A stretch of 64,000 bases of DNA from Pedobacter mucosus (lineage in GTDB: Bacteria; Bacteroidota; Bacteroidia; Sphingobacteriales; Sphingobacteriaceae): positions 3,038,001-3,102,000 of the forward strand of contig NZ_CP087585.1 of assembly GCF_022200785.1 (NCBI RefSeq). The letters are read 5' to 3'. Both the position numbers and the translations under genes were made by a program. This document shows, piece after piece, positions 9,621 through 52,130 of the stretch. The notes below the pieces were generated by a model. It had not been told where the DNA came from. It ran no database searches and saw only the letters and a list, made by a program, of their open reading frames with translations. Positions within the stretch are counted from its first letter, which is position 1, and each line of letters begins with the position of its first letter.

Positions 9621-9735
9621 AAGTTAAATATATTTTAAGGAATAAACTTACCAATTTTTATCTCTTGAGGGCCAGTAAAGAAACCTATTTCTTTTTTATG
9701 TAAACGAAAATTTGGTATTTCAAAAAGGTAAACCT

Positions 9736-9790
9736 GTCCCGCAATCCGCTATATCTCCGATGGAAAATCGGAGGATGCCGCTGCTTTCGG
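9736..9790. repeat. CTCCG...CGGAG interspersed repeat, copy 1
   Basis: The element contains ATATCTCCGAT, a 5-base loop, then ATCGGAGGATGCCGCTGCT. The CTCCGAT/ATCGGAG stem (9755-9773) with the flanking ATA and GGATGCCGCTGCT is matched by a second copy near 51710 with compensating stem changes. A further hairpin (GCTCCCGAT/ATCGGAGC, around 9850-9871) follows. The 9621-9993 gap holds these repeats and no gene that I can see. Confidence 0.65.
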
Positions 9791-9993
9791 GTTTATAAAC
9801 GCAAATCTGCAGTACTATTTTAGCCACTTAAACCCAACCATAGTGAAATGCTCCCGATTTTTCATCGGAGCAGAAACGAGGGTGGGACTGCAGAAACCGA
9901 TCAACTACAAATTTTGCTTTCCAAAAAATAACTCATTAAAAAATTATCAAACATTATAAAATCACATTTGTTGTTTTCAAAAACTACTTGGTT

Positions 9994-16319: not shown

Positions 16320-16565
16320 ATGAACTTAGAAATATTAACTCCAGATAAAAAAGTTTTTGAAGGCGAAGTAACATCAGTTACGGTTCCTGGTACTTTAGGC
16401 TCTTTTCAGATTTTAAAAGATCACGCTGCCATTATCTCAACTTTAGAGGATGGGGAAGTTATTTTGAAATCAAACAATGTTGATGAAAAACGTTTTTTTA
16501 TTAAAGGTGGCGTAGTAGAAGCTATCCATAATAAAATCGTTGTTTTGGCTGAAGGAATTGCATAA
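16320..16565 (+). CDS. atpC: F0F1 ATP synthase subunit epsilon, short form
   Basis: 81 residues, only the N-terminal beta-sandwich domain (MNLEILTPDKKVFEGEVTSV, VPGTLGSFQILKDHA). The C-terminal two-helix domain that inhibits ATPase activity in longer forms is absent, as is usual in Bacteroidota. It is part of the central stalk that couples rotation to catalysis. It follows atpD after a hairpin spacer and is followed by a clear terminator. Confidence 0.92.
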   Translation: MNLEILTPDKKVFEGEVTSVTVPGTLGSFQILKDHAAIISTLEDGEVILKSNNVDEKRFFIKGGVVEAIHNKIVVLAEGIA

Positions 16566-16582
16566 CTTACTTACGTTATTTA

Positions 16583-16619
16583 AAAAGCCTTGCAAATTAA
16601 ATTTGCAAGGCTTTTTTGT
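16583..16619 (+). terminator. rho-independent terminator after atpC
   Basis: AAAAAGCCTTGCAAAT pairs with ATTTGCAAGGCTTTTT, followed by a T-run. It separates the atpDC transcript from the ilv leader region. Between it and 16890 I see only A/T-rich sequence. Confidence 0.85.
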
Positions 16620-16891
16620 TTAATATTATTCAAGTTATCCCGCACTTAATTAGCTATTCTTTATTTATAAAATGCATACAAAAAAACCATTTCTTTGGAT
16701 TGAAATCATTTTTTACGCCGAAAAAATTGAAATTTGTAATGCAAGCATAATATCTATACCGTATACCGATTTGATATATGGTATTCTTACGCCCGCATTA
16801 AATAACTAATTATACTCTATTAAAGAATATTGTTTTGATATAGCTATAGTAAATAGAATATTATTCTGAATCACTTTTTTTATTTTTTCTC

Positions 16892-16922
16892 TTGCATATT
16901 ATCTAACCATAAACTAAATTGG
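16892..16922 (+). promoter_or_regulatory. candidate promoter of the ilv-leu cluster
   Basis: TTG (16892-16894) lies 20 bases before TAAATTGG (16915-16922), one mismatch from the TAnnTTTG -7 box. The transcript would start around 16929, just before the leader peptide ATG at 16946. Confidence 0.45.
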
Positions 16923-16945
16923 TTTTTATAAACAACAGGGTAATA

Positions 16946-17083
16946 ATGAATATTCAAAACAACATACTTACAAATAATTATACTGCAAACGCAGTAATAA
17001 ATTTGGTGTTGTCACCTGTCATTTTGCTTAACCTCCTACTCCTAAACATTTTAGGAGACCAGAAGCGGACGCAGTTTAATTAG
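16946..17083 (+). CDS. Ile/Val/Leu-rich leader peptide of the ilv-leu cluster
   Basis: ATG at 16946 to TAG at 17081-17083 encodes 45 residues. Residues 17-36 contain 15 Ile, Val or Leu, including the runs VILL and LLLL; the other five are Asn, Ser and Pro. The peptide ends in a short polar tail. It lies directly upstream of a transcription terminator and of ilvE, the first gene of a full Ile/Val/Leu pathway. This is the layout of a leader peptide whose ribosome stalls when the charged cognate tRNAs are scarce. The peptide itself need have no function. I found it by reading the frame; it has no family. Confidence 0.82.
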   Translation: MNIQNNILTNNYTANAVINLVLSPVILLNLLLLNILGDQKRTQFN

Positions 17084-17136
17084 ATTTTTTAAAAAAAAAT
17101 ATACCTAAAGCGTCCCGATAACCGGGACGCTTTTTT
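17067..17136 (+). promoter_or_regulatory. transcription attenuator: terminator and competing antiterminator
   Basis: AAAGCGTCCCG (17107-17117) pairs with CGGGACGCTTT (17123-17133) as an 11-base-pair terminator stem with a T-run at 17131-17136. The upstream segment GGACGC (17067-17072), plus TTT (17075-17077) after a two-base bulge, is complementary to AAAGCGTCC (17107-17115), the left arm of the terminator. A ribosome stalled on codons 17-36 of the leader would leave 17067-17077 free to form this antiterminator; a ribosome reaching the stop at 17081 would cover it. A further hairpin, CTCCTAAA/TTTAGGAG (17039-17057), lies within the Leu codons and may act as a pause site. Confidence 0.8.
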
Positions 17137-17155
17137 ATTAAAAAACACGTGTATT

Positions 17156-18046
17156 ATGAACTATTATAATGCTAACACGATTATTTACATAGACGGACAG
17201 TTTCAAAAAGCTGTAGAAAGCGGTACTGATCTTTACGGACAATCGCTACATTATGGTTATGCTGCATTCGAAGGAATTAGGGCCTACAAAACCCATAATG
17301 GAAACCGGATTTTTAAAGCTGCTGCTCATTTCGATCGGTTAGAGCGTTCATGCCAATTGGCCAATATTCCTTTTCCATGGGATAAACAAGAACTAATCAA
17401 GGAAACATATAAACTTTTAACATTAAACAAACTGAAGGATGCTTATATCCGTCCTTTGGTTTTTTGCCATCCAAATATGAAGTTGAATGAGCCTAGAGGC
17501 GTATCTATTTTTATTTGTGCATGGGATTGGGATGCATACTCTGGAAACAAATTGTTAAAACTAACCATTTCAGACTACGAAAGGCCAAATCCAAAATCAT
17601 CCCCAATGGAGGCTAAATTGAGTGGGAATTATGTAAATTCTATTTTGGCTACCACCGCAGCTAACATTAAAGGTTATGATGAAGCCTTACTTTTAGATAT
17701 GCATGGCTTTGTTGCTGAAGCTTCAGGAGCAAACATATTTATAGAAAAAGATGGAAAACTTTATACACCATCTGCTGGAAATATTTTACCTGGAATTACT
17801 AGAGCAACCGTAAAGGAACTTTGTACCGTTTTGGATATTGAATGCATAGAAAAAAAACTTACTGTAGAAGATTTGAAAAGTGCAGATAACGCTTTTCTAT
17901 GTGGAACTGCTACGGAAATTGCTGGAATAGCTTCAATTGATGACATCGTTTTTCGAAATCTTTGGCGTGAATCACTTGGATATACCATTCAAAGGGCTTA
18001 CAAAAATTTGGTATTAGAAAAAGTTAATTACGAAGTGATTATCTAG
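17156..18046 (+). CDS. ilvE: branched-chain amino acid aminotransferase
   Basis: 296 residues, a class IV PLP-dependent aminotransferase. The segment EAKLSGNYVNS at about 157-167 includes the PLP-binding lysine, and EALLLDMHGFVAEASGANIFI at about 178-198 is the family signature region (quoted here in part: GFVAEASGANIF). It transfers amino groups between glutamate and the keto acids of Ile, Val and Leu, in the cytosol. It is the first gene after the leader-peptide attenuator, 20 bases beyond the terminator T-run, so its transcription should depend on read-through. Confidence 0.95.
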   Translation: MNYYNANTIIYIDGQFQKAVESGTDLYGQSLHYGYAAFEGIRAYKTHNGNRIFKAAAHFDRLERSCQLANIPFPWDKQELIKETYKLLTLNKLKDAYIRPLVFCHPNMKLNEPRGVSIFICAWDWDAYSGNKLLKLTISDYERPNPKSSPMEAKLSGNYVNSILATTAANIKGYDEALLLDMHGFVAEASGANIFIEKDGKLYTPSAGNILPGITRATVKELCTVLDIECIEKKLTVEDLKSADNAFLCGTATEIAGIASIDDIVFRNLWRESLGYTIQRAYKNLVLEKVNYEVII

Positions 18047-18121
18047 CATCCAATATTAAAACAGGGCGTAAACATTACAACCTATTTAAACCTTAAAACA
18101 TTACAACAACATCACAATACA

Positions 18122-19804
18122 ATGAGCGAAATCAATAAATACAGTAAAACATTTACACAAGACCCGACACAACCTGCAGCCCAAGCCATGCTTTATGGAA
18201 TCGGCTTAACTGATGCCGATATGGCCAAAGCGCAAGTTGGTATTGCAAGTATGGGTTACGATGGTAACACCTGCAACATGCACCTTAACGATCTTGCAAA
18301 AGATGTTAAAGCTGGCGTTTGGAGAAATGATTTAGTGGGCTTGGTTTTTAACACTATTGGCGTAAGTGATGGAATGAGCAATGGCACCGACGGTATGCGG
18401 TATTCGTTAGTAAGTCGTGATGTAATTGCTGATAGTATTGAAACGATTTGTGGTGGCCAATACTATGATGGTATAATCGCCATTCCTGGTTGTGATAAAA
18501 ATATGCCGGGCGCTATTATGGCGATGGCTCGTTTAGATCGTCCATCAATCATGGTTTATGGAGGAACAATTGCTCCTGGTTATTATAAAGGTGAAGAGTT
18601 GAATATTGTTTCCGCATTTGAGGCTTTAGGTCAAAAAATCGCCGGAAACTTAGACGAAGAAGATTTTCAAGGAATTATAAAACATACTTGTCCGGGTGCT
18701 GGCGCCTGCGGCGGAATGTACACAGCGAATACAATGGCAGCTGCAATTGAGGCATTGGGAATGAGTTTACCTTATTCCTCTTCAAATCCAGCGATCAGTG
18801 AAGAGAAAAAACAAGAATGTTTAGATGCTGGAAAGTACATCCGAATTCTTTTGGAAAAAGATATCAAACCTTCAGATATCATGACGAAAAAAGCATTTGA
18901 AAATGCAATTCGTACCATCATAATTTTAGGTGGAAGTACAAATGCAGTACTACATTTTATCGCTATTGGTAAAGCAATTGGCGTAGAAGTTACTCAGGAT
19001 GATTTCCAACGCATGAGCGACATTACCCCTGTTTTGGCTGATTTTAAACCAAGCGGGAAATTTTTAATGCAAGATTTGCATCAATATGGAGGAATTCCTT
19101 CGGTATTGAAATATTTACTAAATGAAGGCTATTTACATGGAGATTGCCTTACTGTAACCGGAAAAACTTTAGCTGAAAATTTAGCTGATGTAAAATCAGT
19201 TATAGATTACGATCAAAAAATTATTCAAAAAATAAGTGAGCCAATTAAAGCGACTGGTCACTTACAAATTCTTTACGGAAACCTAGCTGAGAAAGGTTCT
19301 GTAGCTAAAATTAGTGGAAAAGAAGGAGAAAAATTTGAAGGTCCGGCTCGTGTATTTGATGGTGAGCATGATTTGATTGCTGGTATTTCGAGCGGCCGTG
19401 TTAAACCTGGCGACGTTATCGTAATTCAAAATGAAGGTCCGGTTGGTGCTCCGGGAATGCCAGAAATGCTAAAACCTACCTCAGCAATTATTGGCGCAGG
19501 ATTAGGCAAAACAGTAGCATTAATAACTGATGGCCGTTTTTCTGGTGGTACTCATGGTTTCGTGGTTGGCCACATTACTCCTGAATCTTACAAAGGTGGT
19601 TTAATTGGCTTAGTTGAAGATGACGATCGTATTTTAATTGATGCTGTTAACAACATCATTAGCTTACAAGTTAGTGAAGAAATCATCGCGGAGCGAAGAA
19701 AAAAATATGTACAGCCTGCTTTAAAAGTTACTAAAGGAGTTTTATTTAAATATGCAAAAACGGTATCAGATGCAGCAAGTGGCTGTGTAACTGACGAATT
19801 TTAA
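18122..19804 (+). CDS. ilvD: dihydroxy-acid dehydratase
   Basis: 560 residues, the usual length. Iron-sulfur cluster ligand regions are visible: [10 protein letters not shown] at about 43-52, GCDKNMPG at about 121-128 and [16 protein letters not shown] at about 190-205. It dehydrates 2,3-dihydroxy-isovalerate and -methylvalerate to the keto acids of Val and Ile. It follows ilvE by 75 bases on the same strand. Confidence 0.96.
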
Positions 19805-19889
19805 ACTATAAAGTTATTTTGTGTTTTGCTTGAAGAACATGAAAGAAAATGTCATCCCTAGACAAATAACAGTATTAAAATGAAACAAC

Positions 19890-20447
19890 ATGCAAATAAT
19901 AAAAAGCATTGAAAGTAGAATTTATACAATAAGGGGTGAAAGGGTTATGTTGGATTTCGATCTGGCATCGCTATATGAGGTTGAAACAAGAGTATTAAAT
20001 CAAGCAGTAAAACGAAATATTAAGCGTTTTCCTGAAGATTTTATGTTTCAGCTTACGAAACAAGAGTTTGAAAATTTAAAATTTCAGATTGACAATAACC
20101 AGAGTATGTCATCACAAATTGTGATGACATACTCAACTAAAAGACCAAATATTGCTTTACCATATGCTTTCACAGAGCAAGGTGTAGCAATGCTTAGCGG
20201 GGTTCTAAAAAGCGATAAGGCAATTAATATGAACATCGCAATTATGAGAGCCTTTGTTGACATTAGAAAAATTTTATTAAAGCAAAGTAACATAAACGAC
20301 CAGTTAACAGAAATTAAGGAACGGATTGGAGAGCATGATGTTCAATTAAATGAGCTTTATGATGCGATGGAAAATTTGATAGACGAAAAAATTGCTCAAT
20401 TAAAATGGAAAGACCGAGAGCGAATTGGATTTAAGATAAAAGAATAA
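19890..20447 (+). CDS. ORF6N domain protein inserted in the ilv operon
   Basis: 185 residues. The N-terminal 130 residues are an ORF6N domain (GERVMLDFDLASLYEVETRVLN in part, RFPEDFMFQLT, PYAFTEQGVAMLSGVL), a DNA-binding type known from phage and chromosomal islands. The C-terminal 50 residues are a charged coiled coil. It has no known role in amino acid synthesis, yet sits between ilvD and ilvB on the same strand. The coding sequence contains a perfect 33-base inverted repeat (20105-20137). It is probably an acquired cargo gene that uses operon transcription. Confidence 0.85.
   Translation: MQIIKSIESRIYTIRGERVMLDFDLASLYEVETRVLNQAVKRNIKRFPEDFMFQLTKQEFENLKFQIDNNQSMSSQIVMTYSTKRPNIALPYAFTEQGVAMLSGVLKSDKAINMNIAIMRAFVDIRKILLKQSNINDQLTEIKERIGEHDVQLNELYDAMENLIDEKIAQLKWKDRERIGFKIKE
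20105..20137. repeat. perfect 16-bp inverted repeat inside the ORF6N gene
   Basis: GAGTATGTCATCACAA is followed by one A and then its exact reverse complement TTGTGATGACATACTC. It codes for part of the variable linker (SMSSQIVMTYS) before PYAFTEQGV. It is long enough to form a strong RNA hairpin or to be a protein-binding palindrome. Confidence 0.8.
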
Positions 20448-20468
20448 TAGATCAGCAAAGACATAATT

Positions 20469-22220
20469 ATGGAAACTGCACAAGATACAATACAACAAAC
20501 TGAGGCGAAAGCAGAAACCTCGCAAACCTTTTTCAAGGGAACAGGTTCTCAAGTGCTATTGAACGGCTTAATTACCGAAGGTGTAAAAACTATTTTTGGT
20601 TATCCAGGTGGCGCAATTATGCCAATTTATGATGCGCTTTATGATTATGCTGACAAACTACAGCATATTTTAGTTCGTCATGAACAAGGTGGTATTCATG
20701 CTGCACAGGGTTTTGCTAGAGCTAGTGGTGAGGTGGGTGTGGTCTTCGCGACTAGCGGACCTGGTGCTACGAACCTGGTTACAGGTTTAGCCGATGCACA
20801 AATCGATAGTACACCTTTAGTTGTAATTACTGGTCAGGTTTTCGCTCATTTATTAGGAACTGATGCTTTCCAGGAAACTGATGTTATTAATATCACAACT
20901 CCAGTTACTAAATGGAATTATCAGGTTACAGATGCTAATGAAATTCAGGAAGTTTTAGCAAAAGCTTTCTATATCGCTAAAAGTGGCAGACCAGGACCTG
21001 TATTAATTGATATCACAAAAAATGCACAAATACAAATTGAGGATTTTCCTGAGTACGTAAAATGCCATCATATTCGCAGTTATCGTCCTAAACCAAAAGT
21101 TCGGGTAGAATATATTGAACAAGCTGCTGAATTAATTAACGCTGCCAAAAAACCTTTCGTATTATGGGGACAAGGTGTTGTTTTAGGTACAGCTGAAGAA
21201 GAATTTAAAGCTTTCATTGAAAAAACTGGAATTCCTTCAGCATGGACAATCTTGGGTGAAAGTGCTATTCCAACGTCACACCCACTAAATGTTGGGATGT
21301 TAGGCATGCACGGTAATTATGGACCGAATGTTTTAACCAACGAATGTGATGTTTTAATCGCTATCGGAATGCGTTTCGATGACCGTGTAACGGGCCGTTT
21401 GGATAAATACGCAAAACAAGCTAAAATCATTCACTTGGATATTGATCCGGCGGAAATAGATAAAAATGTTAAAGCTGATGTTGGCGTTTGGGGCGACTGT
21501 AAAGAAACGCTTCCATTGTTAACCAAATTGGTGAATGAGAATAAACACGAAACCTGGTTAGCTGTTTTCAGAGATTATAATCAACAGGAAATTGATCAAG
21601 TCATTACTCCAGAACTTTATCCTGAAGGTGAAGAAATTACCATGGGCGAAGTATTGCGAAATATCAATGAAATTTGTGATGGAGAAGCCATTATTGTAAC
21701 CGATGTTGGTCAGCACCAAATGGTTGCGTGCCGTTATGCCAAATTTAATAATACGCGTAGTAATATCACTTCTGGTGGTTTAGGAACAATGGGCTTTGGC
21801 TTACCAGCAGCAATTGGTGCTAAATATGGTGCTCCAGATAAAACCGTTATTGCCATTATTGGCGATGGTGGTTTCCAAATGACTCCTCAGGAATTGGGTA
21901 CAATTATGCAGTTTGGCGCTGAAGTAAAAATCCTGATCTTGAATAACCGCTTTTTAGGAATGGTTCGCCAATGGCAACAACTATTTAATGATAAGCGCTA
22001 TTCATTTGTGAACATTACAAGTCCGGATTTTGTGGCGCTTGCAAAAGCATATTATATTGAAGGACAAATGGTTAATGAGCGTGAGAAACTAAGGACTGCT
22101 TTAGGAACGATGATCAATCATAAAGGATCTTACCTTTTAGAAGTTATGGTTGGCAGAGAGAATAACGTTTTTCCAATGGTTCCACAAGGAATGAGCGTAA
22201 GCGAGATTAGACTGAAATAA
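20469..22220 (+). CDS. ilvB: acetolactate synthase large subunit
   Basis: 583 residues, a TPP enzyme. The catalytic glutamate is in RHEQGGIHAAQGFARASG at about residue 72, the FAD/central domain lies at about 200-350 (GMRFDDRVTGRLD), and the TPP-binding GDGGFQMTPQELGT begins near 463. It joins two pyruvates, or pyruvate and 2-oxobutanoate, in the first shared step to Val/Leu and Ile. It is followed by ilvN, the regulatory subunit. Confidence 0.96.
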   Translation: METAQDTIQQTEAKAETSQTFFKGTGSQVLLNGLITEGVKTIFGYPGGAIMPIYDALYDYADKLQHILVRHEQGGIHAAQGFARASGEVGVVFATSGPGATNLVTGLADAQIDSTPLVVITGQVFAHLLGTDAFQETDVINITTPVTKWNYQVTDANEIQEVLAKAFYIAKSGRPGPVLIDITKNAQIQIEDFPEYVKCHHIRSYRPKPKVRVEYIEQAAELINAAKKPFVLWGQGVVLGTAEEEFKAFIEKTGIPSAWTILGESAIPTSHPLNVGMLGMHGNYGPNVLTNECDVLIAIGMRFDDRVTGRLDKYAKQAKIIHLDIDPAEIDKNVKADVGVWGDCKETLPLLTKLVNENKHETWLAVFRDYNQQEIDQVITPELYPEGEEITMGEVLRNINEICDGEAIIVTDVGQHQMVACRYAKFNNTRSNITSGGLGTMGFGLPAAIGAKYGAPDKTVIAIIGDGGFQMTPQELGTIMQFGAEVKILILNNRFLGMVRQWQQLFNDKRYSFVNITSPDFVALAKAYYIEGQMVNEREKLRTALGTMINHKGSYLLEVMVGRENNVFPMVPQGMSVSEIRLK

Positions 22221-22225
22221 TTAAG

Positions 22226-22308
22226 AACATAGATTAAAGAGCAAAGATTAAAGATAAACAAAAGCCGTTATGTCTATTATCCTTGTTCCTTACTCGTTAC
22301 TCCAAAAA
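22226..22308. repeat. purine-rich/pyrimidine-rich spacer repeat
   Basis: The ilvB-ilvN gap consists of a purine-rich left part (AGATTAAAGAGCAAAGATTA) and a pyrimidine-rich right part (TATCCTTGTTCCTTACTCG). Related spacers with AAAGANNAAAGA-like words occur at 22950-23005, 53720-53820 and, inverted, at 60521-60570. Confidence 0.45.
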
Positions 22309-22310
22309 AA

Positions 22311-22949
22311 ATGAGTACTGAAGATAAAATAAAATATACAGAAGATTTAGTTGATTTAGACGGAAAACAGGAATATACCATAACGGTATATGCTGAAAAC
22401 CGCATTGGTTTATTAAATAGAATTGCAATTATTTTCTCAAAAAGAAAAATCAATATTGAAAGCTTAAATAGCTCTGCATCAGAAATTGATGGGATTCATC
22501 GTTTCAATATTGTGATACATGAAGGCTATGAAGTAGTAAGAAAACTTGCACGTCAAATCGAAAAGCAAATTGAAGTATTAAAAGTTTACTACAACACAAA
22601 CGAAGAAATTATTTGGCAGGAATTAGCACTTTATAAAGTTTCTACAGATGAAATTGCTGAAAAGGTAACCGTAGAAAGATTGCTTAGACAGTACGGTGCA
22701 AGTGCAGTAGTAATACGTAAAGATTATACCGTTTTCGCAGTAACTGGTCATAGAGAAGAAACTGACGCTTTAGTAAAAGCGCTAGAGCCTTATGAATTAA
22801 TTGAATTTGTGCGTTCGGCAAGAGTTGCAATTATTAAAGATAGTGCTGGTTTCCACGAAAAACTTAAAGAATTTGAAGCTGAAGAACCAGGAGAAGAACT
22901 TGTGGAAAACGAATTTTTAGAAAAAGGTGGTAAGATATTCACTATGTAG
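22311..22949 (+). CDS. ilvN: acetolactate synthase small (regulatory) subunit
   Basis: 212 residues. An ACT domain opens the protein (ITVYAENRIGLLNRIAIIFS at about 24-43, followed by KRKINIESLN), then a second regulatory domain and an acidic C-terminal extension (EEPGEELVENEFLEKGG). In the family this subunit activates the large subunit and confers valine feedback inhibition. It follows ilvB after a repeat-like 90-base gap. Confidence 0.94.
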   Translation: MSTEDKIKYTEDLVDLDGKQEYTITVYAENRIGLLNRIAIIFSKRKINIESLNSSASEIDGIHRFNIVIHEGYEVVRKLARQIEKQIEVLKVYYNTNEEIIWQELALYKVSTDEIAEKVTVERLLRQYGASAVVIRKDYTVFAVTGHREETDALVKALEPYELIEFVRSARVAIIKDSAGFHEKLKEFEAEEPGEELVENEFLEKGGKIFTM

Positions 22950-23012
22950 TTGGAAGAGAAAAGACCAAGAACAAGGAGTAAAGAACAAAGCGAAAACCCA
23001 CAATAATAAAAA

Positions 23013-23474
23013 ATGAACGAAGTATTTGAATTTATAATTAACTCACGTAAAGCTTTTATCAATTTGATCGATGGCTTAACCATCGAACAGCTAAATAAAG
23101 TTCCAAATGGTTTCAACAACAATATTATTTGGAATTTCGGACATATTGTAGTAAGCACACAAACACTTTGCTATGTCAGAACTGGAATTTTGCAAGATGC
23201 CAGTTCGGTAAAATTTAATGAATTTTACAAGAAAGATACTCGTCCAACTTACGTCGTAAGTGAAGGTGAAGTAAAAGAATTAAAGGCACTCGCATTAGAG
23301 AGCGTAGCAAAAATTGAAGAAGATTATAAAGCTGGAAAATTTGCTAACGCTATACCTTTTTCTACTTCAACATATGGAGTTGAGATGAGAAATATAGAAG
23401 AAGTTCTAATTACGACTATAGGCCATGATAATACTCATTTTGGTTATGCATGGGCGCTGAAAAAAGTAGTTTAA
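23013..23474 (+). CDS. DinB-like (DinB/YfiT superfamily) protein
   Basis: 153 residues, a four-helix bundle type. Histidines likely to form the metal site are seen in FGHIVVSTQ (about residue 44) and in TIGHDNTHFGYAW near the C-terminus (about residues 138 and 142). This matches DinB superfamily proteins, many of which are thiol-dependent metal enzymes or of unknown function. It sits between ilvN and ilvC, 63 bases after ilvN, but has no evident link to the pathway. Confidence 0.8.
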   Translation: MNEVFEFIINSRKAFINLIDGLTIEQLNKVPNGFNNNIIWNFGHIVVSTQTLCYVRTGILQDASSVKFNEFYKKDTRPTYVVSEGEVKELKALALESVAKIEEDYKAGKFANAIPFSTSTYGVEMRNIEEVLITTIGHDNTHFGYAWALKKVV

Positions 23475-23573
23475 TATTTCTATTGGCAGATGATTTTAAT
23501 TTGAAATACAAGCCTGAGTAACATAAACCCGATTGAAGTGAAATACTTTTTTAGTAGCAACCCTGAATAAACT

Positions 23574-23685
23574 GTCATGCTGAGGCACGAGGCATCTGCA
23601 ACCGATGAAACAGATTATTCATTTTTTGTTCATATTTTAAAGGGAATTCATGCTTGCTACGCAGGTCTTCGTTCCTCAGAATGAC
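23574..23685. repeat. GTCAT-ended interspersed hairpin repeat, copy 2
   Basis: Outer arms CTGTCATGCTGAGG and CCTCAGAATGACAG are inverted with one mismatch. The element fills part of the 374-base ilvN/DinB-to-ilvC gap. The rest of this gap holds a short word shared with 51909 onwards (TTGAAGTGAAATACTTTTTT) and a GC-rich hairpin (CCCGCCCTGCGGGC, about 23773); I see no gene in it. Confidence 0.65.
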
Positions 23686-23848
23686 AGAAGTTGAAAAATG
23701 TTTAAACGAAAAGCGGGACTAAAATAACCGAAAAGCAAAGGAATCAGCTTTTCTAAAAAGAAATAAAATATACCCGCCCTGCGGGCACCACTCTAAAAAG
23801 AGGGGAATAAAAAACCAAAGTAACATATAAAATTAACCAACAAAAACG

Positions 23849-25330
23849 ATGTCAAATTATTTTAACACATTACCTCTTAGAGAAAAATTAAACCAATTAG
23901 GTGTTTGCGATTTCATGGACAGTTCCGAATTTTTAGACGGTGTGAGCGCATTAAAAGGCAAAAAATTGGTAATTGTAGGTTGCGGCGCTCAAGGCTTAAA
24001 CCAAGGTTTAAATTTAAGAGATAGTGGTTTAGATGTGAGCTATACTTTACGTAAAGAAGCGATTGAAGGTAAACGCGATTCGTGGAAGAATGCAACAGAA
24101 AACAACTTTAAAGTTGGCACTTATGAAGAATTAATTCAAACTGCTGATGTAGTAATTAACCTTACGCCAGATAAACAACATACTGCTGTAGTTACTGCGA
24201 TTATGCCTTTAATGAAAGATGGAGCTACTTTATTGTATTCTCATGGTTTCAATATTGTGGAAGAAGGTATGCAAATTCGTAAAGATTTAACCGTAATTAT
24301 GGTTGCACCAAAATGCCCAGGTAGCGAAGTTAGAGCAGAATATGTTCGTGGTTTTGGCGTGCCTACTTTAATTGCAGTCCACCCAGAAAATGACCCACAA
24401 GGTAAAGGTTTAGTTCAGGCTAAAGCTTACGCAGTTGGAACTGGCGGACATAGAGCTGGCGTTTTAAAATCATCATTCGTTGCTGAAGTAAAATCTGATT
24501 TAATGGGTGAGCAAACCATTCTTTGTGGTTTATTGCAAACGGGTTCTATTTTGTCTTTCGATAAAATGGTTGAAAAAGGAGTCGATGCAGGTTATGCATC
24601 TAAATTGGTTCAATATGGTGTTGAAGTAATTACTGAGGCTTTAAAACAAGGTGGAATTACTGCGATGTTGGATAGATTAAGCAATCCTGCAAAAATTAAA
24701 GCTTTCGAAATTTCTGAAGAATTGAAGGATATTATGCGTCCTTTATTTCAAAAACACCAAGATGATATTATGAGTGGAGAATTTAGCCGCATCATGATGG
24801 AAGATTGGGCTAATGGCGATAAAAACTTATTGGCTTGGAGAGCTGAAACCGGTGAAACTGCTTTCGAAAAAACACCTGCTGGTGATGTTAAAATTGCAGA
24901 GCAAGAATATTTTGATAACTACCTTTTAATGGTTGCTTTTGTTAGAGCTGGTGTTGAATTGGCTTTCGAAACGATGGTGCAAGCGGGTATCAAACCAGAA
25001 TCTGCTTATTATGAGTCGTTACATGAAACTCCTCTTATCGCCAACACGATTGCCCGCAAGAAATTATTTGAAATGAATCGCGTAATTTCTGATACTGCAG
25101 AATATGGTTGTTATTTATTCGATCAGGCTTGTAAACCACTTTTAGGTGATTTTATGAAGAAAGTTGATACCGATTTAGTTGGTAAAAACTACAATGATGG
25201 TAAAGATGCTGGCGTTGATAATAGAAAACTAATTGATATTAATGAGGCTATTCGCTCACACGAAGTAGAACAAATTGGTGCTACTTTACGCAAAGCGATG
25301 ACTGCTATGAAAGCCATTAAAACGGCGTAA
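23849..25330 (+). CDS. ilvC: ketol-acid reductoisomerase, class II
   Basis: 493 residues, the long class II form with a duplicated C-terminal domain, as in E. coli and many Bacteroidota. The NADPH-binding motif [17 protein letters not shown] is at about 43-60. Metal-binding acidic residues lie in the two knotted domains (for example [11 protein letters not shown] and [15 protein letters not shown]). It isomerises and reduces acetolactate to dihydroxy-isovalerate. It has repeats on both sides, so it might be reached by read-through or by its own promoter. Confidence 0.96.
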
Positions 25331-25342
25331 AATAAAAAGAAT

Positions 25343-25410
25343 GTCATCCTGAGCCTGTCGAAGGAATTCTTTTTATGCTATGAAAAGTCTTCGACAAGCT
25401 CAGACTGACA
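25343..25410. repeat. GTCAT-ended interspersed hairpin repeat, copy 3
   Basis: GTCATCCTGAGCCTGTCGAAGG pairs in part with CTTCGACAAGCTCAGACTGAC. It occupies nearly all of the ilvC-leuC gap. Confidence 0.7.
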
Positions 25411-25429
25411 ATATTAAATACAAAACAAA

Positions 25430-26827
25430 ATGTCAAATACATTAGTAGAAAAAATTTGGGATGCACATGTTGTAAAAAGTGAAGAAGGCTTTCCTGATAT
25501 TTTATATATTGATACGCACTTAATACATGAAGTAACTTCGCCGCAGGCTTTTGATGGTTTGCGCAAACGAGGTTTGCCAGTATTGCGTCCGAAACAAACA
25601 GTAGCAACAGCCGATCATAATGTGCCAACTTTAAACCAATTATTGCCGATTAAAGAAGAGCTTTCTCGCTACCAAGTGGATATGCTCACTAAAAATTGTG
25701 CAGAATTTGGGATTGAATTATATGGCTTAGGTCACCCTTTTCAAGGCATTGTGCATGTAATCGGTCCAGAATTAGGCATTACCCTGCCAGGTAAAACAAT
25801 GGTTTGTGGAGATAGTCATACTTCAACACACGGTGCTTTTGGAGCGATTGCTTTTGGCATCGGTACTTCTCAGGTAGAGCAGGTTTTTGCCACGCAATGT
25901 TTATTGCAGCAAAAACCTAAAACCATGAAAATTGAAGTTAATGGCGAATTGGGTAAAGGAGTAGGCGCTAAAGACATTATCCTTTACATCATCGCTCAAA
26001 TTTCTGCTGCTGGCGGAACTGGCTATTTTATTGAATATGCAGGTACGGCAATCGAAGCTTTAAGTATGGAAGCCAGAATGACGATTTGCAATATGAGTAT
26101 CGAAATGGGTGCCAGAGGCGGATTAATTGCGCCAGACCAAACTACTTTCGATTATATTAAAGGAAGAGAATTTGCTCCAGCAGGTGCAGAATGGGATAAA
26201 TCTTTAGCTTATTGGAAAACTTTATTTAGCGATGCTGATGCAAAATTCGACAGTGTTTTAAACTTTGATGCTGCTGATATCGCTCCAATGATTACCTACG
26301 GAACAAACCCAGGAATGGGAATGGGAATTCTAGAGAATATTCCAGCAACTAAAGCTCAGCCTGAAAAAGAAAAACTTTCCTATCAAAAGGCATTAGATTA
26401 TATGGGATTTGATGATGATTCATCATTAATTGGAAGACCTGTTGATTATGTTTTTATTGGCAGTTGCACCAATTCTCGCATCGAAGACTTACGTGAAGTA
26501 GCTGAATTTGTAAAAGATAAACGCAAAGCGGATAACGTAATCGCGTGGATCGTTCCAGGCTCGAAACAAGTCGAACAGCAAGCAATAAACGAAGGTTTAG
26601 ATAAAATTTTCGAGGCTGCTGGCTTTCAATTACGTGAACCTGGTTGTAGCGCTTGTTTAGGAATGAACGAAGATAAAATCCCGGCAGGAAAATACTGTGT
26701 ATCAACATCTAATAGAAATTTTGAAGGTAGACAAGGGCAAAATGCCCGTACTTTATTGGCTAGTCCATTAACTGCTGCCGCTGCCGCCGTAACAGGAAAG
26801 ATTTCGGATGTGAGGGAAATGATTTAG
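25430..26827 (+). CDS. leuC: 3-isopropylmalate dehydratase large subunit
   Basis: 465 residues, aconitase family. [21 protein letters not shown] at about 130-150 (quoted in part: [13 protein letters not shown]) is the family signature. The three 4Fe-4S ligand cysteines are in [11 protein letters not shown] (about 345) and [10 protein letters not shown] (about 405 and 408). With LeuD it isomerises 2- to 3-isopropylmalate. leuD is separated from it by two unrelated genes, which is unusual because the two subunits are normally adjacent. Confidence 0.96.
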
Positions 26828-26910
26828 AGACAAGGCATGCCTTGTCTCTGTGGAACACAGAAAGGTAAAAAGCGATAAGGCGGAAGGTCTTTGCAATACG
26901 CATAACCACT

Positions 26911-26973
26911 CGTCATTGCGAGGCACGAGCAATCTATTTTACAAGAGAGATTGCTTCGTGCCTCGCAATGACG
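26911..26973. repeat. GTCAT-ended interspersed hairpin repeat, copy 4
   Basis: CGTCATTGCGAGGCACGAGC pairs with GCTTCGTGCCTCGCAATGACG along nearly its whole length. It lies between leuC and the ABM-like gene. Confidence 0.8.
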
Positions 26974-26989
26974 GAAACTTAATAAATAA

Positions 26990-27283
26990 ATGATTTTAGA
27001 GGTCGCGGTATTAGATATAAAAGCTGGTTTATCTGCTGATTTTGAAAAAGCCTTTAACGAGGCTCAAAAAATTATCTCTTCAATGGATGGTTATGTTTCG
27101 CATCAGCTTAAAAAGTGTATTGAAGAAGCTGACAAATATATACTGCTAGTAAACTGGGAAACACTCGAGGCGCATACGGAAGGTTTCAGAGGTTCAGCAG
27201 AATACCAAGATTGGAAAAAGTTATTGCATCATTTTTATGAGCCTTTTCCGATAGTTGAGCATTATATGGAGGTAGAAGTTTGA
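26990..27283 (+). CDS. ABM-superfamily (antibiotic biosynthesis monooxygenase-like) protein
   Basis: 97 residues, a dimeric alpha/beta-barrel type. The pattern of the ABM domain is seen: MILEVAVLDIKAG, a helix with FEKAFNEAQKI, then YVSHQLKKCIEEADKYILLVNW and a C-terminal HHFYEPFPIVEHY. Members include small monooxygenases and stress-related or metabolite-modifying proteins; the substrate is unknown. It forms a pair with the methyltransferase 15 bases downstream and both interrupt leuC-leuD. Confidence 0.82.
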   Translation: MILEVAVLDIKAGLSADFEKAFNEAQKIISSMDGYVSHQLKKCIEEADKYILLVNWETLEAHTEGFRGSAEYQDWKKLLHHFYEPFPIVEHYMEVEV

Positions 27284-27298
27284 GGAGTTAAAAATTAT

Positions 27299-27985
27299 AT
27301 GGAAACATTACAAGAAATACAAAACCAATTTAATGCTGTATCTGAAAAGTACGACAAGCAAAGGCGTTTTCTTATTCCTTGTTTTGATGATTTTTATGGG
27401 ACTGCCCTAACCCTATCTAATGAAATAAAAAATGTAAAAAACATTTTGGATATCGGTGCTGGAACGGGTTTAATGAGTGCTTTCTTCCACGAAGAATATC
27501 CCGAGGCCAAAATTACTTTGGTTGATATTTCATCAGCTATGCTTAAAAAAGCGGAAGAGCGTTTTGATGGCAATGGAAATATAAGCTTTCTAAATGCTGA
27601 TTTCGCAACTGTTGATTTATCAGAAAACCATTATGATTTGGTAATTTCTGGATTGGCGATTCATCATTTACCGAATGATTTGAAAAAGCAGCTTTTTAGT
27701 AAAATTGAAAAGGCATTGAAACCTGGAGGGTGGTTTATTAACGCTGACCAAGTTTTGGGTGAAACAGATTTAATAGAAAAGGTTTACACTGACAACTGGA
27801 AGAATCATGTTCAGCAAAACGAAAACTTAACAGAAGAAGAAAAACAAAGTGCATTTGAACGTATAAAAGTAGACATTATGGTGCCTTTAAAAGCACAACT
27901 AGAATGGCTCCAAATGGCAGGATTAAAAAACGCAAATTGTTATTATCAGTATTACAATTTTGTAGTTTTTGCCGCAAATAAATAA
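27299..27985 (+). CDS. class I SAM-dependent methyltransferase
   Basis: 228 residues. SAM-binding motif I is ILDIGAGTGLMSAFF at about 49-63, motif II TLVDISSAMLKKAEERF at about 75-91 and a post-motif LVISGLAIHHLPN at about 117-129. The substrate is not evident. A short purine-rich GAGGAG precedes the start, one of the few Shine-Dalgarno-like sequences here. It lies between the ABM-like gene and leuD on the plus strand. Confidence 0.85.
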   Translation: METLQEIQNQFNAVSEKYDKQRRFLIPCFDDFYGTALTLSNEIKNVKNILDIGAGTGLMSAFFHEEYPEAKITLVDISSAMLKKAEERFDGNGNISFLNADFATVDLSENHYDLVISGLAIHHLPNDLKKQLFSKIEKALKPGGWFINADQVLGETDLIEKVYTDNWKNHVQQNENLTEEEKQSAFERIKVDIMVPLKAQLEWLQMAGLKNANCYYQYYNFVVFAANK

Positions 27986-28044
27986 TTAAAACATGATGAA
28001 GCTGGAAACAGTGAATCATTTAAATCTGTGTAATCATCTTAAAA

Positions 28045-28626
28045 ATGAAGAAGTTCACAACATTAACATCGGCATGCGTGCCATTGAATATAGAAAATAT
28101 TGATACTGATCAGATTATACCGGCCAGGTTTTTAAAAGCAACTACTCGCGAGGGTTTTGGCGAAAATTTGTTTCGCGATTGGCGTTATGAAAACGATAAT
28201 CAACCTAAAGCTGATTTCGTTTTAAATAACCCTACATACAGCGGTCAAATTTTAGTTGCTGGCAAAAACTTTGGTTGCGGAAGTAGTAGAGAACATGCGG
28301 CCTGGGCGATTCAAGATGCTGGTTTTGATGTAGTAATTAGCAGTTTCTTTGCAGATATTTTTAAAGGAAACGCTTTAAACAACGGCTTGTTGCCAATCCA
28401 AGTGAGCGAAGAATTTTTAAAACAAATTTTTACAGCTATTGAAGAAAATTCTAAAGTAAACCTAACAATTGATTTGGAAGACCAAAAGGTTACGATTAAC
28501 GAAACTGGCCTGCAAGAATCTTTTGAAATAAATGCGTACAAAAAATCCTGCTTGATAAACGGATATGATGACATCGATTTTATCCTAAATCAAAAAGACT
28601 TGATAGAAGAATTTGAGAAAAAGTAA
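28045..28626 (+). CDS. leuD: 3-isopropylmalate dehydratase small subunit
   Basis: 193 residues. [17 protein letters not shown] at about 15-31 and [16 protein letters not shown] at about 73-88 are signature regions of LeuD, the swivelling domain that completes the LeuC active site. It lies about 1.2 kb downstream of leuC, after the ABM-like and methyltransferase genes. Confidence 0.95.
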
Positions 28627-28710
28627 CCCAATCGCAAAAAAGTAGTCTAGTAAAATCAGTGTAATCCCTTTATCTGTGTAATCACCCCCGAAGGAAAAAA
28701 ATGAAGTAAA

Positions 28711-30201
28711 ATGAAAGAGAGTTTCGTCGCCATTCAAAATCTAAACCTAAAACACCAACAAAAAACGGTGTTAAAGGATTTGAATTGGACGATTAACAAA
28801 GGCGAAAACTGGGTATTAGGCGGAGCAAGTGGCAGTGGAAAAACTTCTTTGGCTAAAATTATTGCTGGTAAGCAAACTGCAATTGGCGAAGTAAATATAA
28901 ATTACGACCACAAAAGTATCTTGCCTGCTACAGCTTTATTTGTTGAAAGCTGGTATCAATTTAAAAACCTAGAAGGTGTTGCAAATTTCTATTATCAGCA
29001 ACGTTACACTAGTCAACAAGCAAAAGATACGCTAACAGTTCATGGTGAGCTAATGGCTTTTGGCAAAGAAAAAAACCTTCATTTTGATCAGGTTGAACCG
29101 ATTTTAGAGGCTTTAGGCTTTGCAACATTCGCCAGTTCACAATTGATTGAACTATCTAGTGGCGAACATAAAAAACTTCAATTGGTTAAAGCTTTATGGC
29201 TAAAGCCGCAGCTTTTAATTATTGATCAACCTTATACCGGCTTAGATAAAGCATCCCGCAAGAATCTAAACATTTTATTAGATCAGGTTGCCGAAGAAGG
29301 TGTTCAGCTGATTTTAATCTGCAATGATACCGAACTACCAAGCTGCATCAGTTCTTTTGCTGAAATAAGAGATGGACAATTGTTTAAAGTAGATGCTTTA
29401 GAAACATCCACCAGTACTGAAATGAACTTTAAAGAAATTCCGGCTTTTTTAAAAGAATCGCCTGTTTATTCTTCAGAAAATATTGTTAAAATGGTTGATG
29501 TGAACATCAGCTATGGTGAAAAACGAATTTTAAAAAATATTAACTGGGAAGTTATAGCTGGTGAAAAGTGGCTTTTACAAGGTCATAATGGATCTGGTAA
29601 GTCAACTTTATTAAGTTTAATAAATGGCGATCATCCTCAATCTTACGCCAACGAATTATATTTATTTGGCAATAAGCGAGGAAGTGGCGAAAGCATTTGG
29701 GATATTAAACAACATATTGGTTTAATATCTCCAGAATTTCACTGGTATTTTGATGCTAATTCAACGGCTTGGCAAAGCATTGCATCAGGCTTTTACGATA
29801 CGGTAGGTTTATTTCAGCAACTGCCTTATTCAAAAAGTACGCAGGTTGACGAATTGGTTGAGTATTTCGGTCTAACCGGAAACAAAAACGACTTATTAAG
29901 TTCGCTTCCATTAGGAAAGCAGCGATTGGTTTTATTGGCAAGAACCATTATAAAAAATCCAGAATTACTGATTCTAGATGAGCCCTGCCAAGGTTTAGAT
30001 CAGCAGCAAACGCAACATTTTAACCAGTTGGTAGATGAATTATGCAGTAACGGCATGACTTTAATCTATGTTGGTCATTTTGAATCGCAGTTGCCAACCT
30101 GCATCGAAAAAAGAATATTATTAGAAAAAGGTGAAGTTAAAACCATTGAAAGTATAAATACAGAATCTCGTTATTGCGAGTCACGAAGCAATCTTACTTA
30201 G
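28711..30201 (+). CDS. tandem ABC ATPase, ModF-like
   Basis: 496 residues with two nucleotide-binding domains and no membrane segment. Domain 1 has Walker A GGASGSGKTS (about 37-46), signature LSSGEHKK and Walker B LLIIDQPYTGLD, where the usual catalytic glutamate is glutamine. Domain 2 has Walker A GHNGSGKS (about 291), a weak signature (LPLGKQRL) and Walker B LLILDEPCQGLD. This fits ModF/PhrA-like soluble ABC proteins, whose role is poorly known. The last residues (SRYCESRSNLT) and the stop codon are encoded by the left arm of an interspersed repeat (30169-30242), so the C-terminus has been extended or replaced. Confidence 0.85.
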   Translation: MKESFVAIQNLNLKHQQKTVLKDLNWTINKGENWVLGGASGSGKTSLAKIIAGKQTAIGEVNINYDHKSILPATALFVESWYQFKNLEGVANFYYQQRYTSQQAKDTLTVHGELMAFGKEKNLHFDQVEPILEALGFATFASSQLIELSSGEHKKLQLVKALWLKPQLLIIDQPYTGLDKASRKNLNILLDQVAEEGVQLILICNDTELPSCISSFAEIRDGQLFKVDALETSTSTEMNFKEIPAFLKESPVYSSENIVKMVDVNISYGEKRILKNINWEVIAGEKWLLQGHNGSGKSTLLSLINGDHPQSYANELYLFGNKRGSGESIWDIKQHIGLISPEFHWYFDANSTAWQSIASGFYDTVGLFQQLPYSKSTQVDELVEYFGLTGNKNDLLSSLPLGKQRLVLLARTIIKNPELLILDEPCQGLDQQQTQHFNQLVDELCSNGMTLIYVGHFESQLPTCIEKRILLEKGEVKTIESINTESRYCESRSNLT

Positions 30202-30242
30202 TAAAAATAGCACAAAAGATTGCTTCGTGACTCGTAATGACG
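30169..30242. repeat. GTCAT-ended interspersed hairpin repeat, copy 5, overlapping a gene end
   Basis: CGTTATTGCGAGTCACGAAGC pairs with GCTTCGTGACTCGTAATGACG. The left arm codes for the last ten or so residues and the stop codon (30199-30201) of the ABC ATPase; the right arm is the spacer before leuB. Confidence 0.8.
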
Positions 30243-30257
30243 ACAATATAAAACACA

Positions 30258-31361
30258 ATGAAAAAAAACATATTAGTTATACCTGGCGATGGCATTGGAC
30301 CAGAAGTTACCACATGGGGAAAAGCAGCTTTAGAAAAAATTGCTGAAATTTTCGGTCATGAATTTGTGTTTGATGAAGCATTAATGGGGCATGCAGCAAT
30401 CGAAGTTACAGGTGAACCACTGCCAGATGAAACCTTAGAAAAAGCTAGAAAGAGCGATGCTATCCTCTTCGGAGCGATTGGTCATGCGAAATATGATAAC
30501 GACCCTAGCTTGAAAGTTAGGCCGGAACAGGGCCTATTAAAAATCCGCAAAGAGCTTGGATTATTTGCAAATCTCCGTCCGATATTGTTGTTTGATGAAC
30601 TCCTTCAAGCATCGAGTATTAAACCAGAAATTTTAAAGGGAACTGATATTTTATTCTTCCGTGAGTTAACAGGAGATATTTATTTTGGCGAGAAAGTACG
30701 TTCAGAAGATAGAAATACAGCATCTGATTTAATGATTTATCACCGTTACGAAGTGGAACGAATTGCTCATAAAGCTTATCAGGCTGCACAGCAACGTAGC
30801 AAAAGACTTTGTTCTGTTGATAAAGCAAATGTTTTGGAAAGCTCTCGCTTATGGCGGGAAACCGTTCAGGACATTGCGAAACAATATCCTGATGTTGAAA
30901 CCGAGCATATGTTTGTGGATAATGCCGCGATGCAATTAATTAAAAATCCGAAGAAATTTGATGTGGTTTTAACAGCGAATTTATTCGGAGATATTTTAAC
31001 AGATGAGGCATCGCAGATTGCCGGTTCTATGGGCATGTTGGCTTCTGCATCAGTTGGTGAAAGCACTGGTTTTTTCGAACCGATTCACGGTTCTGCGCAT
31101 GATATTGCTGGTAAAGATTTAGCAAATCCCTTAGCCTCTATCCTATCTGCAGCACTAATGCTCGAAATTGGTTTTGGACTAAAAGACGAAGCTAAATTAT
31201 TGGTTAATACGATTGATCAAGTATTGAAAGACGGTTTTAGAACCCATGATATTGCCGATCAAAGCACAAATCGATTTAAAGTTTTGGGTACAGCCGAAAT
31301 GGGTAAATTGGTAATGAAATTTTTATCACAAAAAATAACTACAACAACACAAACATCATGA
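30258..31361 (+). CDS. leuB: 3-isopropylmalate dehydrogenase
   Basis: 367 residues, isocitrate/isopropylmalate dehydrogenase family. The N-terminus [11 protein letters not shown] and the segment [13 protein letters not shown] at about 133-145 contain substrate-binding residues; [20 protein letters not shown] (20 residues) near 240-260 contains the metal-binding aspartates. It oxidises and decarboxylates 3-isopropylmalate with NAD+. Its TGA overlaps the ATG of leuA (ATGA), so the two are probably translationally coupled. Confidence 0.96.
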
Positions 31362-32863
31362 TACACGATCCAAATAAAGTATATATTTTCGATACCACTT
31401 TGCGTGATGGCGAGCAGGTTCCAGGTTGCCAATTAGATACAAATCAGAAAATTGAAATTGCAAAAGCATTAGAATTACTTGGTGTTGATATAATTGAGGC
31501 TGGTTTTCCAATATCAAGTCCTGGAGATTTTCAAAGCGTTGTGGAGTTATCAAAAGCCATTAAGAATCCTACAATCTGTGCTTTAACACGTGCAATTAAA
31601 GGTGATATTGATGTTGCTGCAGAATCTTTAAAGTATGCAAAATACCCTCGTATCCATACGGGAATTGGCGCTTCTGATATGCATATCAAGTATAAATTTA
31701 ATAGCACCCGAGAGAAAATTTTAGAACGAGCTGTTGAAGCTGTTAAGTATGCCAAAACTTTTGTAGAAGATGTAGAATTCTACGCCGAAGATGCGGGAAG
31801 AGCTGATAATGCATTTTTAGCGCAGATGATTGAGGCTGTTATTGCCGCTGGTGCTACCGTTGTAAACATTCCAGATACAAATGGATACTGCTTGCCCGAT
31901 CAATATGGTTCGAAAATTCTTTATTTGAAAGAAAATGTTAAAAATATAGATCAAGCAATTATCTCTGTTCATTGCCATAATGATTTAGGAGTGGCGACAG
32001 CAAACAGCATTGCCGGTGTTTTAAACGGTGCTCGTCAGATTGAATGTACCATTAATGGTATTGGCGAAAGAGCTGGAAATACAGCTTTGGAAGAAGTTTC
32101 GATGATTTTAAAAACTCATGCTTTAAATCTTCACACTGGTATTAACAGCAAACATTTTACGGAAATCAGCGGAATGGTGAGTCGCATGATGCATATGCCT
32201 GTTCAGCCAAATAAAGCTATAGTTGGTAAAAATGCATTCGCACATAGTTCTGGTATTCATCAAGATGGATTTTTGAAACACAGAGAAAACTACGAAATCA
32301 TTAATCCTGAAGATGTTGGTTTAAATAGTGCAGATATTATTTTAACTGCCCGTAGCGGTCGCCATGCCTTAAAACACCATTTGGAACGTTTAGATTATGA
32401 TATCGAGAAAATTAATATTGATGATGTATACGAACGTTTCTTGGTTTTAGCTGATGAGAAAAAAGACATCACCGATGATGATTTGCTTTTTTTAATGAGT
32501 AATGGTGAAACGCCTTCTTATTTAAACGGATATAAATTAAATTTTCTACAGGTTGTTTGTGGAGATTTAGTTAGTCCGACGGCAACCATTAAACTTCAAT
32601 ATGACAACGAAGAAAAGGAAGCTAAAGCGGAAGGAAATGGTCCGGTTGATGCCACTATAAATGCAATTTCAAGCTTAATTGATAAAGACATTACGCTTAA
32701 AGAATTCACCATCCAGGCGATGCATGGTGGAAGTGATGATGTGAGCAAGGTTAATATGAAGGTTGATTACGAAGGAAAATCTTTTATAGGTTTTGGGTTC
32801 AGTACTGATATTGTAAAAGCATCTGCAAACGCATATTTAGATGCGATTAATAAGTTTTTGTAA
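31358..32863 (+). CDS. leuA: 2-isopropylmalate synthase
   Basis: 501 residues. The TIM barrel begins with [14 protein letters not shown] at about 10-23 (metal-binding Asp) and carries the metal-binding [13 protein letters not shown] near 204. A linker leads to the C-terminal LeuA regulatory domain (about 380-501), which in the family binds leucine for feedback inhibition. It condenses acetyl-CoA and 2-oxoisovalerate, the committed step of Leu synthesis. The start overlaps the stop of leuB by four bases. Confidence 0.95.
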
Positions 32864-32989
32864 AGGAGCCACAGCCCCACCCTATGAAAGGATTTGCTAG
32901 GGCTATTTTCTGCAACTCCCTCCCCAAAGGGAAGGGAAACAAAGGATGGTGGTTTGAACCTTATTATACAAAAAGACAGTTTTAAGAAT

Positions 32990-33056
32990 TAAATAGCATA
33001 AATAATATGAACGCCTAAACTCCTCCCCTCCGGGGAGGTTGGGAGGGGATTGATAC
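32990..33056. repeat. GC-rich CTCCCC/GGGGAG intergenic repeat
   Basis: CTCCTCCCCTCCGGGGAGG followed by TTGGGAGGGGAT forms a short hairpin plus a third G-rich block, much richer in G+C than the surroundings. A related CTCCCTCCCC block lies at 32915-32925. It sits between leuA and ilvA. Confidence 0.55.
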
Positions 33057-33062
33057 CATAAA

Positions 33063-51640: not shown

Positions 51641-51698
51641 AAAATAAAGCCAAATACAATAACTCGGAAAGCAAATTGCTACTAGATGAAAGTCAGTC

Positions 51699-51753
51699 GG
51701 GCTATTCGTTATAGCTCCGGTAAAAAAAACCGGAGGCTGCCACTACTATCCCG
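51699..51753. repeat. CTCCG...CGGAG interspersed repeat, copy 2
   Basis: ATAGCTCCGGT, an A-rich loop and ACCGGAGGCTGCCACTACT match the element at 9736-9790, with the stem sequence changed on both arms. The 51527-52130 gap also holds three copies of ATTTATGGTTG (about 51779-51815), a GAGATTTGCAATCTC hairpin with a following GGATTGCAAATCC, and no gene that I see. Confidence 0.65.
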
Positions 51754-52130
51754 TTTAGTTAAATAATAAACTGCTACTATTTATGGTTGCTATTTATGGT
51801 TGCCATTTATGGTTGGTCGAGATTTGCAATCTCGTCCTTTGAATAAAGGATTGCAAATCCCAACTAGCACATCTTCCATTTGCACAGTTCTAAATTAATT
51901 AAACCTTATTGAAGCGGAAATACTTTTTTGTGCTCGAAAGTATTGATTTACCAAAGAACCAATCACAAAAAAGATTGTAGTGGAAAGAAGGGCTGCTGAT
52001 CCCGATGAAAAAGAAACTTACATTTTCTAATATTTTCAGAATCACCTATTAGGCTAAAAGTTTATGTATCGTTTGTAAAATATGCGACTCAAATACAATT
52101 TCTCCTTAAATTTACCTTAATTCGCAAATT

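Follow-up and report, generated by a model that had tools for sequence, protein, structure and literature searches.

A predicted ribosome-mediated attenuator ahead of the ilv-leu genes of Pedobacter mucosus

Why does a short reading frame crowded with isoleucine, valine and leucine codons lie directly upstream of the branched-chain amino acid genes in Pedobacter mucosus? The frame is found in a stretch of 64,000 nucleotides, hereafter called the window. The genome is one contig of 4.93 Mb, and nearly all named relatives whose ilvE is closest to its own (86-95% identity) belong to Pedobacter. In enteric bacteria, the ilvGMEDA, ilvBN and leuABCD attenuators combine a short frame rich in Ile, Val and Leu with alternative stems and an intrinsic terminator before the biosynthetic genes. 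A first-pass annotation of the window had proposed the same logic here, and conservation, coupled stem changes and a folding model support the proposal. From sequence comparison and modelling, we predict that a classical ribosome-mediated transcription attenuator controls the ilv-leu genes, with a probability of about 0.9.

The leader frame (16946-17083, + strand) has 45 codons, begins with ATG and ends with TAG at 17081-17083. Shine-Dalgarno initiation is mostly absent in Bacteroidota. Counted from the translation, codons 17-36 (16994-17053) contain the 15 Ile/Val/Leu residues that had been claimed for them and include the succession CTC CTA CTC CTA. The two strands of the window together give 51 frame-terminator combinations, of which the leader, with 11 Ile/Val/Leu in 15 residues, is the densest. 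As the runners-up reach 10 and 9 in 15, density within the genome is only modest evidence.

An intrinsic terminator with 11 pairs, 7 of them G-C, spans 17107-17133, is T-rich to 17136 and lies 22 bases upstream of ilvE. Its left arm (segment 3, 17107-17117, +) faces the right arm with the T tract (segment 4, 17123-17136, +). The antiterminator strand (segment 2, 17067-17077, +; core GGACGC at 17067-17072) occupies the codons just ahead of the stop and forms a duplex with segment 3. The terminator and this complementarity had both been pointed out by the first-pass annotation and are present, with energies of -18.6 kcal/mol for the terminator and -12.2 kcal/mol for the 2:3 duplex. Minimum free energy folds add a possible protector strand (segment 1, 17016-17028, +; partner 17061-17074) and, between segments 1 and 2, a hairpin CTCCTAAA-CAT-TTTAGGAG within the leader (17039-17057, +). 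The RNA of 16946-17155 folds with z = -5.5 against shuffles, and 16560-17500 holds 4 terminator-like sites on both strands against a shuffle mean of 0.5.

Comparison with relatives is the deciding evidence and far stronger than density in one genome. In 71 of the 72 Pedobacter-type loci, counting the own genome, ilvE lies behind a frame that reaches 8 or more Ile/Val/Leu per 15 residues and a terminator with a loop of no more than 14; this set leaves out L101-L104, L106 and L107, and the ilvE set leaves out L109 (Deltaproteobacteria). With a stricter criterion (9 in 15, shorter loops), 68 of 78 loci pass in a set extended by six other loci. The sole exception among the 72 is L092 (Pedobacter montanisoli), in which the promoter pattern before ilvE is kept and the branched-chain-rich leader is absent. 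Loci from other genera of the same family passed the leader test in 0 of 5 cases; in one of these loci, L115, a rich frame is present and no terminator was found after it. The comparison across Sphingobacteriaceae that had been proposed as a check is thus positive for Pedobacter-type loci but not for the other genera.

For the phylum, 170 of 296 sampled genomes gave a match to the ilvD protein at E 1e-120, and 80 upstream regions were analysed. They were picked by hand among the matches listed, mainly at higher identity, from 20 families, and matches of about 40-44% identity were left out. Of these 80 loci, 37 have a frame containing 9 or more Ile/Val/Leu per 15 residues and a subsequent intrinsic terminator, at most 420 bases from ilvE or ilvD, compared with 2 of 1600 dinucleotide shuffles. 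One of the 37, L189, has a long frame and is likely false; it is contained in this count and in the swap, ribosome-model and shuffle counts given below, and is left out of the family count. Without it, 36 of 80 loci pass in 9 of 20 families, and 11 of the 20 families have no passing locus. The distribution in the phylum is wide but patchy.

The leaders also carry coding signals. When the leaders of 48 close relatives are compared pairwise among themselves alone, mismatches at codon positions 1, 2 and 3 number 12602, 11454 and 19458, an excess at the third position. The core columns of the aligned leaders are largely Ile/Val/Leu throughout. CTC makes up 15.3% of the Leu codons in the 48 leaders versus 1.6% in 32 window genes, CTA 25.6% versus 8.3%, and GTC 29.2% versus 2.8% of the Val codons. 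Rare Leu codons are also used by enteric leu leaders. In Pedobacter, the rare codons may be fixed, at least partly, by RNA pairing instead of tRNA supply.

RNAalifold recovers the terminator in the 48 close relatives, with a consensus stem of 11 pairs, each retained in 46-48 of 48 rows. The compensating changes that had been suggested as a check are found: both sides of columns 158-169 are changed in 18 of 48 rows, and those of columns 155-172 in 2 rows. L072 and L073 carry joint alterations of segments 2, 3 and 4, in the antiterminator strand as well as in the two arms of the terminator. Column-wise 2:3 covariation on alignment A1 as one structure was unusable because two variants of segment 2, one with leader endings like KRTQFK and the other like KKTGSF, pair with segment 3 in different registers; it was dropped for duplexes computed per sequence. 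Most of the leaders listed have segment 2 within their final codons or around the stop. In the swap test, the native duplex is compared with the mean of duplexes that use segment 2 of other species. The native duplex is the stronger one in 33 of the 37 phylum loci (-14.6 vs -10.2 kcal/mol) and in 48 of 68 loci of the more uniform first set (-12.7 vs -11.9 kcal/mol), where the test is weak. Compared with base-shuffled versions of itself, segment 2 falls within the top 5% in 61 of 105 loci. By the 2:3 duplex, the swap test in the phylum set and the joint changes, the antiterminator and the terminator are mutually exclusive.

Does the leader geometry allow a ribosome to choose between the two structures? 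Our model assumes that a ribosome hides the RNA to base 12 past the first base of the A-site codon. In this genome, the probability that segment 3 pairs upstream is 0.77-0.86 for stalls at codons 17-36 and 0.01 for a ribosome at the stop. The distances given by the first-pass annotation, by which a stall at codon 36 frees 17067 onward and a ribosome at the stop covers it, therefore hold in the model (about 0.8 vs 0.01). As the probability stays near 0.8 up to codon 36 and falls across codons 37-43, the last control codon is where the switch begins. The means for stall and stop are 0.67 and 0.03 in the 48 close relatives, 0.68 and 0.06 in 20 other loci of the first set, and 0.70 and 0.10 in the 37 phylum loci. 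The stall value exceeds the stop value by 0.15 in 48 of 48, 20 of 20 and 36 of 37 loci, respectively. Part of this ribosome effect is generic: with the ribosome stalled at the final dense control codon, shuffled spacers already give 0.48, compared with 0.67 for the native ones. The native value is above the shuffle mean in 97 of 105 loci, and in only 66 of 105 do at most 4 of 40 shuffles reach it.

The state without a ribosome divides the attenuator model into two forms. With no ribosome, the probability of upstream pairing is 0.78 in this genome and averages 0.71 in the close relatives, 0.60 in the other first-set loci and 0.50 in the phylum loci. A stall exceeds it by 0.15 in 0 of 48, 5 of 20 and 16 of 37 loci, respectively. 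Since the model favours antitermination even without a ribosome, a fail-safe of the enteric type is unproven, and a protector stem (1:2) that keeps untranslated leaders switched off, as in enterics, is not clearly supported. The attenuator could instead be a two-state device whose protector stem is absent or ineffective and whose untranslated leaders would be read through; we put this variant at somewhat less than even odds. In favour of this variant, segment 2 of ribosome-free RNA pairs at equilibrium with segment 3 rather than with segment 1 (0.76 vs 0.08 here; 0.65 vs 0.06 in the 48 close relatives). Before segment 3 is made, however, the 1:2 stem reaches 0.83 in this genome and may persist kinetically. 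The corresponding mean is 0.40 in the 48 close relatives, and the value is above 0.5 in 14 of these 48 and in 60 of 105 loci overall.

For either form of the attenuator, we infer the transcription start, translation of the leader, stalling and read-through from the sequence. RNA polymerase would initiate a few bases past 16922, with a ribosome trailing on the leader frame. With an ample supply of charged Ile-, Val- and Leu-tRNA, the ribosome would reach the stop at 17081 and cover segment 2, and segments 3 and 4 would form the terminator ahead of ilvE. If one of the three amino acids is short, the ribosome should stall on codons 17-36. A ribosome stalled as far along as codon 36 would still have its front at about 17063, leaving segment 2 free. 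Segment 2 would then pair with segment 3, and the polymerase would continue into ilvE and the downstream genes.

The putative promoter at 16892-16922 (+), TTG-N20-TAAATTGG, resembles the TTG/TAnnTTTG type of Bacteroidota, with one mismatch to the consensus. The pattern TTG-N18-22-TAnnTT(G/T)G is present in 72 of 72 Pedobacter-type loci, and on the reverse strand in 0 of 72. Within the promoter-like site, a highly conserved ACCA-N10-TGGT could alternatively be an operator. This raises the possibility that the main regulator is a protein binding there, or a tRNA-binding RNA such as a T-box, and that the leader is secondary. A search of Rfam at gathering score gave no known RNA family, T-box included, at the leader or in 12 relatives. 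A T-box riboswitch was also rejected for the window, in which no T-box covariance model matched at that score. As sensing by the ribosome accounts for the leader geometry, we consider a main regulator of this kind very unlikely. Elsewhere in the window, Flavo-1 RNA (RF01705) has three matches, at 51691-51760 (-), 51897-51998 (+) and 9731-9798 (-), of which two lie in opposite orientation inside a span of 310 bases.

The first gene of the cluster is ilvE (17156-18046, +), a branched-chain aminotransferase gene (TIGR01122, 246.0 bits against a cut-off of 245.55). Across the genus, the best ilvE identities to the protein of the window form two groups, 86-95% and 62-72%, with a gap between them and one second copy at 59%; this split suggests two ilvE lineages or a replacement. 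The cluster continues at 18122-34313 (+) with ilvD, an ORF6N gene, ilvB, ilvN, a DinB-like gene, ilvC, leuC, a 97-aa frame, a methyltransferase gene, leuD, an ABC gene, leuB, leuA and ilvA. Hence, ilvE, ilvD, ilvB, ilvN, ilvC, leuC, leuD, leuB, leuA and ilvA all follow the leader on the + strand (17156-34313). Five genes inside the cluster, all on the + strand, have no obvious branched-chain role: the ORF6N-domain gene (19890-20447), the DinB-like gene (23013-23474), the 97-aa frame (26990-27283), the methyltransferase gene (27299-27985) and the ModF-like ABC gene (28711-30201). In the 13 gaps between cluster genes, a search for terminator-like sites on the + strand found none, and a scan with a looser form of the leader-type promoter pattern gave zero matches. 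Within cluster genes, there are two promoter-like sites of the leader type, at 17618 and 34233, and one terminator-like stem inside ilvE (17426-17465). We infer that the whole of about 17 kb would be under leader control, as one transcript. Palindromic short repeats with a shared core like GCGAGTCACGAAGCAATCT occur in cluster gaps at 26943-26989 and 30168-30258; judged by eye, a similar stretch seems to lie in 23475-23848.

The terminator before ilvE could also be the end of an upstream transcript or a constitutive damper, with a hydrophobic frame in front of it by accident. Intrinsic terminators are common, with 27 in the window on both strands. The upstream ATP synthase genes, however, are closed by a terminator of their own at 16582-16616, and the conserved promoter-like site follows it. 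A constitutive terminator of the upstream genes was therefore rejected. Moreover, frame and terminator occur together in 71 of 72 loci, and their pairing segments co-change. Such a coincidence appears a little less probable still than control by an operator or T-box.

Leaders of other pathways argue strongly for amino acid sensing, as the leader residue changes with the pathway. All 15 genomes of the genus that were compared have a His-rich leader (4-6 His in 12 residues) upstream of hisG (L201 in the own genome). A leader with Trp-Leu-Trp or Trp-Gln-Trp precedes a trpE-like gene in 14 of 14 (own genome, L209); the fifteenth genome has only a shorter-matching homologue. The trpE-like matches score about 399-416 bits, all under the curated trpE cut-off of 517.7, so the name of this gene rests partly on its leader. 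A Thr/Ile-rich leader precedes a long aspartate kinase gene (own genome, L236), probably that of the bifunctional thr enzyme with its frame of about 820 codons, in 14 of 14. One trp and one thr locus (L213 and L243), on cut contigs, were read by eye. Terminators are present after the trp and thr leaders, and a G+C-based scan for a strong terminator after the his leaders gave 0 of 15. In L201, an A+T-rich hairpin and a T run are visible after the his leader.

These leaders also bear on the least probable idea of all, a frame before ilvE whose product works as a small hydrophobic membrane protein or a toxin-like peptide. In favour of it, the product is strongly hydrophobic and shows conservation in the close clade. 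Its sequence, however, is not maintained across lineages, where it becomes very different while branched-chain content, position and RNA pairing are kept, and other operons carry His, Trp or Thr leaders instead.

Returning to the attenuator, the median Leu share of the leaders is 0.44 with leuC downstream (n = 7) and 0.18 elsewhere (n = 32; one-sided P 0.003, kinship ignored), and 5 of the 7 loci are from one family. Here, "downstream" means past ilvD, on the same strand and within 15 kb, with classes assigned by hand; leuC on another contig was counted as elsewhere, and L164, with no leuC match, was excluded. L158 among the 7 and L127 and L154 among the 32 run contrary to the trend. Tentatively, and at rather less than an even chance, Bacteroidota might run a classical attenuator set for ilv-leu, thr, trp and his, the last three known here from Pedobacter. 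The ilv version would extend to nine further families, mainly as a two-state device without protector stem, and its Leu share would track the leu genes in the operon.

How does this leader compare with known systems? Lopatovskaya and others (2010), cited in PMC4833913, made a comparative study that may cover Bacteroidota. The first-pass annotation was aware of no experimentally described ilv attenuator in this lineage. None was found for Bacteroidota among the literature matches listed, a coverage with subscription journals mostly outside it, but clues to attenuation in the phylum already existed. A transcriptome study of Flavobacterium psychrophilum found strong clues that amino acid operons are under leader-peptide attenuation (PMC9723704), so the idea is not new for Bacteroidota. 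That case shares with ours the phylum, the amino acid biosynthesis operons and the structured 5' regions; the passage concerned names no operon, and "ilv" is absent from the main text (PMC9723704). Attenuation-like short frames are mentioned for B. thetaiotaomicron in another report (PMC7366714). The Bacteroid-trp motif (RF01692) is listed as a Bacteroidetes cis-regulatory RNA; its name points to trp and not to ilv, and "leader peptide" is absent from the main text of the source (PMC2864571). Until they described their Firmicutes cases, the authors of a 2010 paper were aware of leader peptide systems in Proteobacteria and Actinobacteria only (PMC2965389).

In other phyla, the ilv-leu operon of Staphylococcus aureus has a leucine-rich attenuator with genetic evidence (PMC5794164). 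Like the Pedobacter locus, it has one leader peptide and a terminator ahead of a joint ilv-leu operon; it differs in phylum and in that the attenuator is combined with CodY (PMC5794164). Corynebacterium ilvBNC is controlled by a uORF and resembles our case in having a conserved short frame that controls an ilv operon, but it belongs to Actinobacteria, and the start of the abstract does not name leu genes (PMC10272879). The Pedobacter leader resembles the enteric ilv/leu attenuators in its Ile/Val/Leu-rich frame, alternative stems, terminator and rare Leu codons. It differs from them in phylum, in placing a single leader before both ilv and leu genes, and in its uncertain protector stem. The control logic of the E. 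coli type seems to recur in other Bacteroidota lineages.
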